From positions 1 through 32,576 of the IMG/VR virus record IMGVR_UViG_3300043395_001200: a stretch of DNA of 32,576 nt; one strand, given 5' to 3'. Shown piece by piece: positions 2,293-32,576 of this stretch (the first letter of the stretch is position 1; every line of letters begins with the position of its first letter). The notes beneath the pieces are model-generated. The model was not told where the DNA came from and did not search any database. It worked only from the letters and a program-made list of their open reading frames with translations. The DNA is from a virus. Both the position numbers and the translations under genes were made by a program.

Positions 2293-4053
2293 ATGGCAGA
2301 ATTTACCCTACAGCAGGCTTATCAAAGAGCCATTGCAACAAATCAATTATACAGTAGAAACCGCGAACGTTGGCAGTTCTACTTGGACAGTTATCAAGGC
2401 GGAGAAGATTACCGCAATGGTGCTTACCTACAGCGTTATCAATTAGAAAGCGACAAGGATTATCAACTACGTTTAGCCAACACGCCCCTAGACAATCAAT
2501 GTCGCAGTTTAATCAGTCTTTATGTCAGTTTCTTGTTTAGAACTAGCCCTAGTCGCGAATTTGGTGTGCTAGAAGACAACATGATGATTGAAGACATTCT
2601 AGAAGACGCAGACTTAGACGGTCGTAGCATGGATGCTTTCATGAAGGATGTAGCCATATGGTCCGGAGTATTTGGACACGTATGGGTCAACGTCAGTCAA
2701 CCTGATGTAGGTGCAGTCACACTGGCAGATCAATTGGCACAGGGTGTACGTCCTTATCTATCAGTGGTAACACCTTTATGTGTCACTGATTGGCGTTGGG
2801 CACGTCAGGCCAATGGATCTTGGGCCTTAGAATATATCAAAGTAGTAGAAGAAGTCAATGACACAGTCAGTGTGGTTAAAGAATGGACTGTGGACACAAT
2901 TACTACCACAGAAATCAATACAAAAAGAAACGAAGCAACAGATTATTATGTTGAACCTAATCAATTGGGTCGCTTGCCATGGATCTGTGTTTATGCAGAA
3001 CGCAGTCCAGTACGCGGTTTAGGCAACAGTCTGATATCAGATATTGCAGATCAACAGCGCATGATCTACAATGAACTAGCAGAAGTCTATGACAGCATTA
3101 GATTAGACACACATCCAAGTTTGGTAGCCACAGTGGATACTAATGTAACAGGCGCAGCCGCAGGACAGGTTATCACCATGCCCGACAACTTGCCACCAGA
3201 CATGAAGCCATATGTACTACAGTTCCAAGGCGGACAAATTGACAAGATCTATGCCAGTATCGAATATCGTCGCAAGATGATTGACAGCATGGGTAATGTT
3301 GGATCAGTTCGCGCTACTGAAACACGTGAAATGTCAGGCATTGCTATAGAAACAGAATTCCAATTGCTAAACGCACGTCTAAGTTCAATTGCAGATAATC
3401 TAGAACTAGCCGAAGAATCTATTTGGCAGGAAGTCTGCACATACCTAGGTGTAGAATGGGAGGGAACTATTGAATATCCCGGAGACTTTGCACTACGTAA
3501 CGTAGACAACGAACTAGATCAATTGGCCAAGATGAAAAGCCTAAGTGCTCAGCCTATGTTGCAAGAAGAAATTGATAAGCGCATTGCCGAAATGCTGGAT
3601 ATCGAAGAAGTATTAACACCTCCTGCTAATGCACAAGCAGCCATGGCAGAAATAACAGAAGAAGGTATGGTCGATGGTTGCCCGATACCAATGACGGATA
3701 AGGCAATGAATATTGCTAATCATAAAATCTGTGTGGAAGAAGCAAACCTAGGACCTGCTAGACCAAGTCAGCCAGGCACATTCTGGATGCAACGAGCAGA
3801 TAGACTAGGTATAACAGAACAACAAAGTCGTAGCCAAACCTGTGCTAACTGCGGATTCTATGTGAATACGCAAGGCATCAAATCATGCTGGACCAGCAAC
3901 TTGGCCGCAGGCAATATACCATTGGCCACAGAAGTCGATCCAAGTTGGGAGAATGTACCTAACCCAGCCGGCTATTGCGTCAAGTGGGATATAACCTGCA
4001 CACCAACAAGAACCTGTGATACATGGGTAGCAGGTGGACCCATAGTCGATTGA
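2293..4053 (+). CDS. Portal protein with cysteine-rich C-terminal extension
   Basis: The dodecameric portal forms the DNA channel at the capsid vertex and docks TerL and the connectors. The 586-aa protein follows terL directly, with a GGAG ribosome site upstream. Residues 1-100 contain the pattern YxGGExYRNGAYLxRY, then Yx8Rx12N, resembling DUF4055-type portals; the middle carries the long helical region expected of the stem and wing. The last about 120 residues are unusual: six cysteines at 517, 520, 532, 562, 569 and 575, including TCANCGFY, AGYC and RTCDTWVAGGP. This module is not part of the portal fold and resembles cysteine-rich segments I recall from aquatic phages. It may bind zinc or an iron-sulphur cluster; that is inference. 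Confidence 0.88.
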   Translation: MAEFTLQQAYQRAIATNQLYSRNRERWQFYLDSYQGGEDYRNGAYLQRYQLESDKDYQLRLANTPLDNQCRSLISLYVSFLFRTSPSREFGVLEDNMMIEDILEDADLDGRSMDAFMKDVAIWSGVFGHVWVNVSQPDVGAVTLADQLAQGVRPYLSVVTPLCVTDWRWARQANGSWALEYIKVVEEVNDTVSVVKEWTVDTITTTEINTKRNEATDYYVEPNQLGRLPWICVYAERSPVRGLGNSLISDIADQQRMIYNELAEVYDSIRLDTHPSLVATVDTNVTGAAAGQVITMPDNLPPDMKPYVLQFQGGQIDKIYASIEYRRKMIDSMGNVGSVRATETREMSGIAIETEFQLLNARLSSIADNLELAEESIWQEVCTYLGVEWEGTIEYPGDFALRNVDNELDQLAKMKSLSAQPMLQEEIDKRIAEMLDIEEVLTPPANAQAAMAEITEEGMVDGCPIPMTDKAMNIANHKICVEEANLGPARPSQPGTFWMQRADRLGITEQQSRSQTCANCGFYVNTQGIKSCWTSNLAAGNIPLATEVDPSWENVPNPAGYCVKWDITCTPTRTCDTWVAGGPIVD

Positions 4054-29371: not shown

Positions 29372-29692
29372 ATGCAGTTACCACAACAGATAGAATTCAT
29401 GAGCCAAAAATGGTCTATCAGAACAGCACTACACAGAGAACTGGAAGATTGTGTGGGTCAATGCGATCCCAAGACAAATACCATAATCATAGAAAAAAAC
29501 ATGCCCAGTGACGTCATGACTCAGACATTAATGCATGAACTGACACATGTTATTGAAATGACACTACAGTTAAATCTCACAGAACAACAGGTTGACTGTT
29601 TAGCCACTGGATGGTTACATTTATTGCGTACTAATCCACATGTGGTAAAATTAATCACAGCAAAGGAATCAAAAGATGAGATTCGGACATGA
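29372..29692 (+). CDS. Small HExxH metallopeptidase-like protein
   Basis: The 106-aa protein has the zinc-binding motif HELTH at residues 55-59 in an M-H-E-L-T-H-V-I-E helix, followed by a second helix (EQQVDCLATGWLHLLR) that could supply the third ligand (E71 or nearby). This compact layout resembles small phage HExxH proteins related to the ImmA/IrrE or SprT-like groups. It is the first gene of the packaging operon, behind AAAGGACTAGAG. It may process a capsid or host protein; an endopeptidase role in lysis cannot be ruled out. It overlaps the next gene by 17 nt. Confidence 0.7.
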   Translation: MQLPQQIEFMSQKWSIRTALHRELEDCVGQCDPKTNTIIIEKNMPSDVMTQTLMHELTHVIEMTLQLNLTEQQVDCLATGWLHLLRTNPHVVKLITAKESKDEIRT

Positions 29693-30005
29693 TTATAATA
29701 AACAGGGCTTATGGGCTTGGAATGATGAACTGTTCATGAGTAAATTAACTCCAGGTGCAGAAGATGAATGTTGGCTTACACATACATTTCCACAAAGCCC
29801 ATATGGACCATTGTTTGGTGCTAGATTAACTCGGCCTGATGGCACTACACGCAGACAAATGACACAGGCTCGTCGTGTACAGGCCATGCGACACTTTGGG
29901 GATATAGTTGGCAAACAGATTAAACATACATGTGGTTGTAATGACTGCTTAAATCCCCACCATATGGAGATATTACCCAGTAGACTAAAGGTGCATCAGG
30001 GATGA
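29676..30005 (+). CDS. HNH-like zinc-binding protein (putative endonuclease)
   Basis: The 109-aa protein has CW at 32-33, YGPLFGARL at 43-51 and the terminal motif H84-x-C86-x-C88-x2-C91-x-N93-P94-x-H96. This matches the H.C....C.NP.H core of HNH_3-type nucleases. The upstream AHR usual in that family is replaced by ARR. HNH proteins often lie next to terminase genes in cos phages and are needed for DNA cutting in several of them; the order HNH-(small genes)-terS-terL fits. Activity is not proven from sequence. Confidence 0.75.
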   Translation: MRFGHDYNKQGLWAWNDELFMSKLTPGAEDECWLTHTFPQSPYGPLFGARLTRPDGTTRRQMTQARRVQAMRHFGDIVGKQIKHTCGCNDCLNPHHMEILPSRLKVHQG

Positions 30006-30211: not shown

Positions 30212-30474
30212 TGGTTAGACCCAAAGCACCAGTACTACTACAACAAGCAGATGATATCGGTGACATCGAAATCATGATGGCGCCAGCAGTATGGATAGTC
30301 ATGTATCAAAATACCGCTATCAGCATGGCACGTAGAACATGGACGGTGCGTGGCCAAGTGGTCAAATACATGAGAACAAATTTTAGCAATCCTGCACACG
30401 CATATAGATTGGCCGCAAAGTTGAACAAGATGTTTGACACAGATGATTTTACAGTTAGGGAAATAAATATATGA
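30211..30474 (+). CDS. Hypothetical protein, 87 aa (complete copy)
   Basis: This is the full-length form of the gene cut at the window start. ATG 30211 shares its A with the previous stop. The N-terminus is short and polar (MVRPKAPVLLQQADDIGDI), followed by a hydrophobic patch and a basic helical half. No function is recognised. From base 30224 onward it lies in the terminal repeat. Confidence 0.75.
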   Translation: MVRPKAPVLLQQADDIGDIEIMMAPAVWIVMYQNTAISMARRTWTVRGQVVKYMRTNFSNPAHAYRLAAKLNKMFDTDDFTVREINI

Positions 30475-30707
30475 GACAAGGACAAATACACGTTTATGGT
30501 GGCTATAAATCACCAGAAGAAGGCGCAAGAACTATTACGCCTATTATTCAAAATGAAGCCTACGGACTTTATGTGCGTAGAACTTACATTCGAGGACAAT
30601 GGCACATAGAACTTATTCGTAAGATGCCAGAATACAGTGAACCATTGATTACAGAGTTCTTTTTATCGCCGGATGAACTACAACTACTAAGGGAGAGTCT
30701 ACGATGA
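30471..30707 (+). CDS. Hypothetical protein, 78 aa (right copy)
   Basis: Identical to 248-484 in sequence and in its ATGA overlaps on both sides. It is the same gene of the unit genome, present twice only because of the terminal overlap. Confidence 0.7.
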   Translation: MRQGQIHVYGGYKSPEEGARTITPIIQNEAYGLYVRRTYIRGQWHIELIRKMPEYSEPLITEFFLSPDELQLLRESLR

Positions 30708-30850
30708 AATTACCGGAAACAGTAGCAACAGAACAAGAACTCATGAAACAGCGAGTTCGTTTTCTAGTATTAGTAAATGGCTATCTATCAGCAGGCGCAT
30801 GGATTGCCATAGCCTATGCTGGATATCGCCTAGTGGGATTATTTGCATAA
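30704..30850 (+). CDS. Small single-span membrane protein, 48 aa (right copy)
   Basis: Identical to 481-627. It sits directly before terS, with TAATG overlap. The hydrophobic C-terminal half is unchanged. Confidence 0.65.
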   Translation: MKLPETVATEQELMKQRVRFLVLVNGYLSAGAWIAIAYAGYRLVGLFA

Positions 30851-31269
30851 TGGCAGTTAAAGAAGGTACAAAAATAGTCCATGGATTGATTGTGGGACGC
30901 AATCAAGTTGTAGTGCCACCTGAAGAAGTAGAAGATTTAGCCAGTCTAGGCTGCACTAATACTGACATAGCCAATTGGTTTGGTATCGATGACAGCACAC
31001 TAACATACAATTTTAAGCAGGAACTGATAAAAGGTCGTGAAAACTTAAAGATATCATTACGCAGAGCCATGCTGAAAAATGCCTGTGTAAACTTAAATGC
31101 CGCAGTACAGATCTTCTTAGCGAAAAATATGCTGGGCATGAGCGATAATGGTATGAATACAGACAACAGTAAGGTTCTACCTTTTACCGACAATGATGAT
31201 GATCAAGTATCAGAAGCAGATCTAGATGAAATGCGAGAAGAACTAGCAAATCTAGATGGCACTGAGTAA
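30850..31269 (+). CDS. terS: Terminase small subunit (right copy)
   Basis: Identical in protein and, by my reading, in DNA to 627-1046. It overlaps the second terL copy by 14 nt, as in the left copy. Confidence 0.75.
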   Translation: MAVKEGTKIVHGLIVGRNQVVVPPEEVEDLASLGCTNTDIANWFGIDDSTLTYNFKQELIKGRENLKISLRRAMLKNACVNLNAAVQIFLAKNMLGMSDNGMNTDNSKVLPFTDNDDDQVSEADLDEMREELANLDGTE

Positions 31270-32488
31270 AGCACAACGCATGATAGCAGATGCGCCCTTT
31301 AGATTCAGGGTTGCATGTTGTGGACGACGCTTCGGTAAGACACATCTAGCCATGCGAGAAATCGCTAAATTTGCCAGTAAGCCAGATCAACGTGTTATCT
31401 ACGTTGCACCTACCTATAGAATGGCTAAGAATATTCTATGGAAGAAACTTAAGAAGAAACTTACTTCAATCAATTGGGTGCGTAAAGTCAATGAAACTGA
31501 ACTGACACTGGAATTAGTCAACGGCAGTGAAATACAACTCAAAGGAGCAGAAAACTTTGATGCACTTAGAGGAACAGGCAATAATTTTATTGTCTTAGAT
31601 GAAGTTGCAGACATGCACAGTGAAGCATGGTATGAAGTACTGCGTCCTACTCTTAGTGATACAGGTGGACATGCACTATTCCTAGGCACACCCAAAGGCA
31701 TGAATTGGTTCAAAGATTTGTTTGACAATGCCTTAACTAAAAAGAACTGGGTCAGTTTCCAGTTTACCACAATCGATGGAGGCAACGTTCCTGCAGAAGA
31801 AGTAGAACAAGCACGACAGGATCTAGATGCAAGAACGTTCCGTCAAGAGTTCATGGCTACCTTTGAAAACTTCTCGGGTATTATTGCTTATGCATTTGGA
31901 CAGCATAACATCAAAACAGCAGACGCAGTTCAAGCCACAGAACCCTTAATTCTGGGCATGGACTTTAACGTAAATCCAATGTCATGTGCTATATTGAGAA
32001 AAACACCACAAGGACTGCACCAAATAGATGAGATTGTCTTACCCAGCAGTAATACCAATGAACTTATTGAAGAAATACGCAATCGCTATCCTAGTAATCC
32101 TATTAGTTGTTATCCTGACCCTGCTGGTGTCCAGCGTAAGACAAGTGCCAATGGAAATACGGATATTCGACTGCTTGAGCAAGCCGGATTTACCGTGCGT
32201 TATCATAGACAGCACGCCCAAGTCAAAGACAGAATAAATGCCGCAAACAGTTTATTTTATCTGCGTGATGATGATAGCACTCGTTTTTACATTGATCCTC
32301 GTTGTAAACATACTATTAAAAGTCTTCAGCAGTTTTGTTATAAAGAAAATACACAAATACCTGACAAGGATTCGGGACTGGATCACATGTGGGATGCGTT
32401 AACTTATCCTATAGAATTCTTATTCCCAATACAGAAAATACATGAGCCCAGAGCGCCGCAGAGATTCGGTCATGCTTTGGCTGCATAA
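31256..32488 (+). CDS. terL: Terminase large subunit, second allele (right copy)
   Basis: Same 410-aa protein as at 1033-2265 except V47 for I and D340 for S. I count 32 nucleotide differences from 31333 to 32455 and none in the flanking repeat. All Walker, coupling and nuclease residues are retained. Nearly all changes are silent, so this is a natural allele under purifying selection and not sequencing error. Confidence 0.97.
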   Translation: MALSKAQRMIADAPFRFRVACCGRRFGKTHLAMREIAKFASKPDQRVIYVAPTYRMAKNILWKKLKKKLTSINWVRKVNETELTLELVNGSEIQLKGAENFDALRGTGNNFIVLDEVADMHSEAWYEVLRPTLSDTGGHALFLGTPKGMNWFKDLFDNALTKKNWVSFQFTTIDGGNVPAEEVEQARQDLDARTFRQEFMATFENFSGIIAYAFGQHNIKTADAVQATEPLILGMDFNVNPMSCAILRKTPQGLHQIDEIVLPSSNTNELIEEIRNRYPSNPISCYPDPAGVQRKTSANGNTDIRLLEQAGFTVRYHRQHAQVKDRINAANSLFYLRDDDSTRFYIDPRCKHTIKSLQQFCYKENTQIPDKDSGLDHMWDALTYPIEFLFPIQKIHEPRAPQRFGHALAA

Positions 32489-32515
32489 ATATACAATAGA
32501 TCGGAGCCTCAATAC

Positions 32516-32576
32516 ATGGCAGAATTTACCCTACAGCAGGCTTATCAAAGAGCCATTGCAACAAATCAATTATACA
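32516..32576 (+). CDS. Portal protein, N-terminal fragment (cut by window end)
   Basis: The first 20 codons of the portal gene, identical to 2293-2353, truncated by the end of the window. The upstream TAAATA box and GGAG ribosome site are also repeated. Confidence 0.9.
   Translation, partial: MAEFTLQQAYQRAIATNQLY

Follow-up and report, generated by a model that had tools for sequence, protein, structure and literature searches.

A cysteine module with a predicted HiPIP-like fold on a phage portal protein and on other phage head proteins

Why should a phage portal protein end in a cysteine-rich segment, and what would the cysteines hold? The question is raised by the portal gene of a virus record of 32,576 bases, the whole of which is referred to here as the window. 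The gene is flanked by the large terminase gene (1033-2265) and by the scaffold and capsid genes. Residues 16-425 of its product match the portal family phrog_145 (PHROGs, E 8.3e-58), and no PHROGs family matched the C-terminal segment, here called the module. The gene is laid out as follows.

2293..4053, + strand: portal protein gene with C-terminal HiPIP-like module, 586 aa (open reading frame; phrog_145 portal match)
2338..3567, + strand: portal core, aa 16-425 (phrog_145; module-less relatives 39-41% identical)
3568..3660, + strand: linker between core and module, aa 426-456 (bounded by the portal profile match on one side and the module profile match on the other)
3661..4050, + strand: HiPIP-like cysteine module, aa 457-586 (module profile; AlphaFold2 pLDDT 92.8; Foldseek PDB list led by HiPIPs)

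The module is 130 residues long and separate from the portal core. Twelve cysteines are present in the portal protein (70, 163, 232, 382, 463, 480, 517, 520, 532, 562, 569 and 575), of which residues 1-456 contain four and residues 457-586 contain eight. A first-pass annotation had described a six-cysteine module fused to the C-terminus of the portal; a separate module is indeed present, and the six that it counted are those from 517 to 575. The spacing that it gave, Cx2C-x11-C-x29-C, is exact for C517, C520, C532 and C562. The window also encodes, at 29676-30005, a small protein of 109 aa that contains four cysteines and a single CxxC. Positions 1-2353 and 30224-32576 repeat each other with a period of 30,223; the 32 mismatches all lie inside the large terminase gene, 26 of them at third codon positions. 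This probably reflects a genome of ~30.2 kb, circular or permuted, whose assembly ran through two strain variants and so left two copies of the terminase in the record.

To see how related portals end, we scanned viral contigs with the portal core. At least 551 of 600 candidates were confirmed and 80 were kept, of which one carries a window-type module, 21 carry a short tail and 58, four of them cut at the 3' end, carry neither. The short tail consists of 40-50 residues with four cysteines and occupies the same place in the portal as the module. The portals of a Pelagibacter phage and of DSL-LC06, with core identities of 39-41%, are without the module, and the full portal sequences at L007, L008 and L009 have no cysteine after the core. 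Besides the 80-portal set, the module is found on the portal in the window, at L091 (identical module), L092 and L094. Other portals fused to it are those at L014 and L033, and at L122 it is a separate frame starting at the portal gene end. The segment is thus not an ordinary part of all related portals, the case that the first-pass annotation had named against its own reading. The same 58 portals would suit a view of the module as no more than one of the variable C-terminal tails of this portal family. We consider this very improbable, since the module also occurs alone and on unrelated proteins, and is more conserved than the portal core.

Among the window and its three closest non-identical portal relatives (L092, L093 and L094), the modules are 75-85% identical to one another and the cores 50-70%. 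The module is therefore either under stronger constraint than the portal itself or of more recent exchange. The window core is nearest to L094 (69%, against 54% for L092) and the window module is nearest to L092 (83%, against 75% for L094). These different nearest relatives suggest, on the basis of four sequences, that the module has been exchanged between portals. As dS among the portals is near saturation, dN/dS was not used. The C-terminal slot of the portal looks like a swap site, and a second HiPIP-like form occupies it. Short four-cysteine tails at the portal gene end, at or near the Pfam HIPIP cut-off, are seen at L106, L118, L120, L136, L171 and other loci. Other recurring tails are seen in the same slot at L119, L125, L097, L138 and elsewhere; one of these ends in a GYTDEEIL..HSEIT motif and another has EPHIMC...ARTEQEH.

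The fold of the module was predicted with AlphaFold2 from 55 aligned modules, giving a model of the window module with pLDDT 92.8 and pTM 0.86. Foldseek against 350,542 PDB chains returned 28 rows at E up to 10, with HiPIPs as 17 of the first 19 and a best E of 0.11. VIA aligned 49 chains, and all 14 listed rows were HiPIPs (best 1hlq_B, Z 4.8, 2.3 Å over 63 of 74). A model of the free-standing subtype of the module (49 sequences, pLDDT 87.3) gave a Foldseek PDB list of 43 rows in which rows 1-16 were all HiPIPs (best E 0.03, probability 0.98). VIA on this model gave 14 HiPIP rows (best 3hip_A, Z 5.7, 3.4 Å over 75 of 82), and its first non-HiPIP rows were two glycyl radical enzyme chains, 2y8n_B (Z 2.5) and 9o8u_B (Z 2.1). 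Neither model had a Foldseek PDB row at E <= 0.001, and VIA Z values below 6 are middling. The single values are weak, but one family topping two lists persuades, and the models point to a HiPIP-like fold for the module. The free-standing model ends in the VIA alignment with residue 123 paired with residue 85 of 1hip; if the end is gapless, the last cysteine of the model (115) would fall on C77 of 1hip, a cluster ligand according to the title of 1js2. In BFVD, nine rows passed 0.001; they include portal, XkdF, Dps, DUF6321, DUF5824 and prohead protease proteins from uncultured phages. When the window module by itself was searched by sequence against solved structures, nothing was returned. The window-type profile against solved structures gave two rows only (LaM6 and an aldehyde oxidase subunit), which were taken for chance.

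To examine the link to HiPIP (PF01355) at the level of sequence, we compared the module, its free-standing subtype and the short portal tail with the Pfam family. At 15 bits, the window module stays under the gathering score that Pfam sets for the family, 22 bits. Pfam HIPIP is matched by 13 of 13 short portal tails; two of three short tails of related portals reach the cut-off of 22 (22.4 and 22.1), and the tail at L118 scores 23.1. With HiPIPs leading both Foldseek PDB lists as well, the resemblance that the first-pass annotation had noted with reserve is stronger than it supposed. In hhalign comparisons, the short tail aligned with HiPIP at 93.4% with all four cysteines in register, the free-standing subtype with the short tail at 95.4% (CxxC, GYC and RxC aligned) and the window type with the free-standing subtype at 99.9%. 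Directly against HiPIP, the window type reached 15%, with CxNC alone aligned, and the free-standing subtype 9%. As a control, the cysteine columns were fixed and the other columns shuffled 60 times. The real score for short tail and HiPIP was 36.2 against 20.4 for the best shuffle, and that for free-standing subtype and short tail was 44.6 against 15.2; 0 of 60 shuffles reached the real score in either case. For window type and short tail, the real score was 24.2 against 20.8 for the best of 60 shuffles. The direct comparison of free-standing subtype and HiPIP scored 21.3 against 21.9 for the best shuffle, with one of 60 shuffles reaching the real score. The direct link to HiPIP falls short of significance, and a chain through the short tail is therefore needed.

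The module carries the four-cysteine arrangement CxxC, C and C-x2-aromatic. The strict HiPIP signature, which we take to be C-x(6,9)-[LIVM]-x3-G-[YW]-C-x2-[FYW], was found in 17 of 19 HiPIPs and in 0 of 125 phage modules (0/55 window-type, 0/49 free-standing and 0/21 short tails). The form C-x(11,15)-C-x2-[FYW] is present in 52 of 55 window-type modules, 49 of 49 free-standing modules and 21 of 21 short tails. HiPIPs are small exported proteins; the module consists of residues 457-586 of a portal.

Identical modules (6) were left out before counting. The window-type alignment holds 55 of 79 distinct modules from viral contigs (the window and 54 others), the free-standing alignment 49 of 74 and the short-tail alignment 13 of 21. 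Wider counts were made on 163 distinct modules, comprising 83 of type I (the window type) and 80 of type II (the free-standing type). The cysteines concerned are the following.

3841..3852, + strand: predicted cluster ligands 1 and 2, C517 and C520 (CANC); in 163/163 modules, aligned to the HiPIP CxxC
3976..3978, + strand: predicted ligand 3, C562 (GYC); in 163/163, aligned with the third ligand of the short HIPIP-type tail
4015..4017, + strand: predicted ligand 4, C575 (RTCDTW); in 163/163, x12 from C562, aligned to ligand 4 of the short tail
3679..3681, + strand: extra cysteine C463, typical of the window-type module; in 83/83 type I and 4/80 type II
3886..3888, + strand: extra cysteine C532, type I only; in 83/83 type I and 0/80 type II
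3997..3999, + strand: extra cysteine C569, between ligands 3 and 4; in 162/163

C463, C517, C520, C532, C562, C569 and C575 are invariant in the 55 aligned modules. The search patterns forced some positions (517/520 or 562/569) and left 463, 532 and 575 free; the conservation of the cysteines exceeds chance. The sole module of the 163 without an equivalent of C569, at L255 (5001-5339), keeps the four predicted ligands. The spacing between ligands 3 and 4 is x12 in 163 of 163 modules, and that between ligands 2 and 3 ranges from 30 to 42. The profile chain with its shuffle controls, the subfamily that lacks C532 and the rigid x12 spacing of C562 and C575 together indicate that the ligands are probably C517, C520, C562 and C575. 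The site implied by the earlier spacing, C517/C520/C532/C562, probably does not hold, and C532 was rejected as third ligand: it is missing in all 80 free-standing-type modules. Fold and profile comparison argue that the module cysteines come together.

The same fold could instead hold zinc, or its cysteines could form disulphides, leaving a purely structural domain with no Fe-S cluster. A CxxC followed by two cysteines also suits zinc, and small zinc domains are frequent in phages. A disulphide would fit the extra conserved cysteines C463, C532 and C569, the first two of which mostly occur together or are missing together in a given subfamily, as expected of a pair. Against zinc, both models lead to HiPIPs and to no zinc ribbons, the clear Pfam match of the short tail is to HIPIP in 13 of 13 cases, and the CxNC followed by an aromatic residue and the C-x12-C-x2-W end are HiPIP-like traits. 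We consider a module of this kind unlikely, and [4Fe-4S] the likely metal centre.

To determine how far the module has spread, profiles were run on viral contigs. The module profile confirmed at least 563 of 600 pattern stretches, the free-standing subtype profile at least 488 of 600 (the two sets may overlap and are not additive) and the short-tail profile 296 of 386. At least several hundred viral contigs thus carry the module. Of 50,697 phage records, only seven contained a clear relative of the window module; a match in Aeromonas phage phiA005 (E 0.3, 70 aa) was set aside as a chance CxxC match. Relatives occur in lake, spring and marine phages, which bears out the earlier suspicion of a widespread domain. 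That the domain was also unnamed is partly true, as the GenBank copies that are separate genes are labelled 'high potential iron-sulfur protein'. Bacterial genome contigs yielded one relative among 17 pattern matches, on a Betaproteobacteria MAG contig that may be viral or host. Roseobacter phage CRP-13 gp68 (L352, 2861-3181) is a marine, free-standing relative annotated as hypothetical, with five cysteines in the expected order. The cultured Pontimonas phage phiPsal1 (L351, 3330-4784) has a prohead protease with a short HiPIP-like stretch near its N-terminus.

Fusion to other structural genes, which the first-pass annotation had proposed to count, was assessed by Pfam on 75 module ORFs. The 80 module loci kept were the best matches of the at least 563 and not a random sample, and the 75-ORF set leaves out L001-L006, the portal relatives L091-L094 and five identical-module loci. 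The partners are Peptidase_S78_2 (the XkdF-type protease, 17), DUF5824 (16), Peptidase_S78 (6), DUF6321 (5), Phage_capsid (3), Ferritin (3), Phage_portal (1) and SPP1_portal (1), where one ORF may match several families. PHROGs agree, giving head maturation proteases, major head proteins and portals. The 76 short-tail ORFs are 71 portals and 5 fragments. The module is mobile: it occurs free-standing or on portals, head maturation proteases, protease-capsid polyproteins and Dps-like proteins. Neighbouring proteins were annotated for 43 of 62 in the free-standing subtype and 59 of 244 in the other subtype, leaving out module ORFs cut by contig ends, and many of those annotated match nothing. Neighbours of free-standing copies include the head maturation protease, phrog_858, which we take to be Dps (5 of 43), terminase and portal; those of the other subtype include terminase, portal and scaffold. 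Some free-standing copies adjoin non-head genes, for example at L005, where ninB and methyltransferase genes are close by and a terminase gene lies ~3 kb on.

The C-termini of SPP1- and P22-type portals form a crown or barrel inside the head, and maturation proteases act inside the prohead. Since both lie inside, the prohead interior is the common factor of the fused partners, and the module may well be located there. The separate module, the prediction of a HiPIP-like fold, the conservation of the ligands, the mobility and the head-protein partners are computational results. The explanation that we favour, by a modest margin over even odds, is that the module is a HiPIP-fold [4Fe-4S] accessory domain of phage heads that works inside the prohead. 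One [4Fe-4S] cluster would be bound through C517, C520, C562 and C575 (Cx2C-x41-C-x12-C-x2-W), with a helical insert between ligands 2 and 3 and the three further conserved cysteines outside the site. As part of the portal, the module would hang from the crown end inside the head; as part of a maturation protease or a protease-capsid polyprotein, it would sit within the prohead while the latter is being assembled. It could then serve as a cluster-clamped docking or conformational module for prohead assembly, bringing the portal together with scaffold, protease or internal proteins, and would act like the HiPIP-fold accessory subunits of glycyl radical enzymes rather than as a diffusing electron carrier. 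This role in head assembly is put forward tentatively, at somewhat less than even chance.

A different function would be that of a redox or iron device of the virion, in which clusters on the portal and the Dps-like partners protect the packaged DNA, sense redox state at ejection or bring iron into the host. In favour of this, the HiPIP fold is a redox fold, three of the 75 ORFs join the module to a Ferritin-like domain, phrog_858 makes up five of the 43 neighbours of free-standing copies, and one BFVD match is annotated Dps. Proteases and portals are nevertheless the commoner partners, and none of the window's genes named in its partial annotation points to iron handling. A HiPIP fold also need not mean redox, as PMC12358834 describes such folds as accessory subunits in glycyl radical enzymes. 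This last point leads us to favour the docking or conformational module and to rate a redox or iron role lower, as improbable. Equally improbable is its most elaborate form, a ring of HiPIP-type [4Fe-4S] clusters inside the head, one per portal subunit and so twelve if the portal is the usual dodecamer. With the same domain also on maturation protease, capsid polyproteins and Dps-like proteins, the head would carry a redox or iron system through which assembly, protection of the genome or ejection would respond to redox state.

That at least several hundred viral contigs carry the module, and that several head proteins unrelated to one another bear it, suggests that it could have a general place in the head assembly of aquatic phages. 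It could be tested at the bench, as two phages with named hosts, Pontimonas phage phiPsal1 and Roseobacter phage CRP-13, carry it. We know of no Fe-S cluster on the DNA gate of a phage head. A literature search of titles and abstract starts, whose scope lay within journals other than preprints and most subscription titles, gave no paper on HiPIP in a phage head. As far as this literature goes, the portal and protease fusions, the two HiPIP-like forms in one portal slot and the corrected ligand set are new.

The GenBank genes labelled 'high potential iron-sulfur protein' in DSL-LC01 and Manatee Spring phages encode the same module, but as separate genes and not on portals; the main text of PMC10611076, which names DSL-LC01, contains no iron-sulfur, high potential or HiPIP. 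With HiPIP (PF01355) the module shares the predicted fold and the order of CxxC, third cysteine, fixed short gap, fourth cysteine, x2 and aromatic residue, and the short portal tail scores above or close to the Pfam cut-off. The window module differs in having 41 residues between ligands 2 and 3, RTC and not GWC at ligand 4, three extra conserved cysteines and a portal fusion in place of a small exported protein. According to PMC10721106, virion Fe-S clusters are known at tail tips, in lambda gpL and RcGTA gp13. Lambda gpL likewise carries a four-cysteine C-terminal Fe-S domain on a phage structural protein, but at the tail tip and not in the head, and the role of its cluster is described there as still open. 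Its ligands, Cys173, 182, 205 and 212, include no CxxC and give C-x8-C-x22-C-x6-C (PMC10721106), in contrast to Cx2C-x30..42-C-x12-C in the module. The accessory subunits of glycyl radical enzymes (MASS beta/gamma, BSS beta/gamma and the HPAD small subunit) are, in PMC12358834 and PMC12590467, HiPIP-fold [4Fe-4S] domains with accessory or conformational functions and variable cysteine spacing. BSS beta is thought there to act in conformational regulation; soluble expression is helped by BSS gamma and by the HPAD small subunit. These subunits differ in having enzyme partners in anaerobes where the module has a portal, and 2y8n_B and 9o8u_B reach only the Z values given above. They follow the HiPIPs in the VIA list of the free-standing model, and the comparison with the phage module is one of fold.
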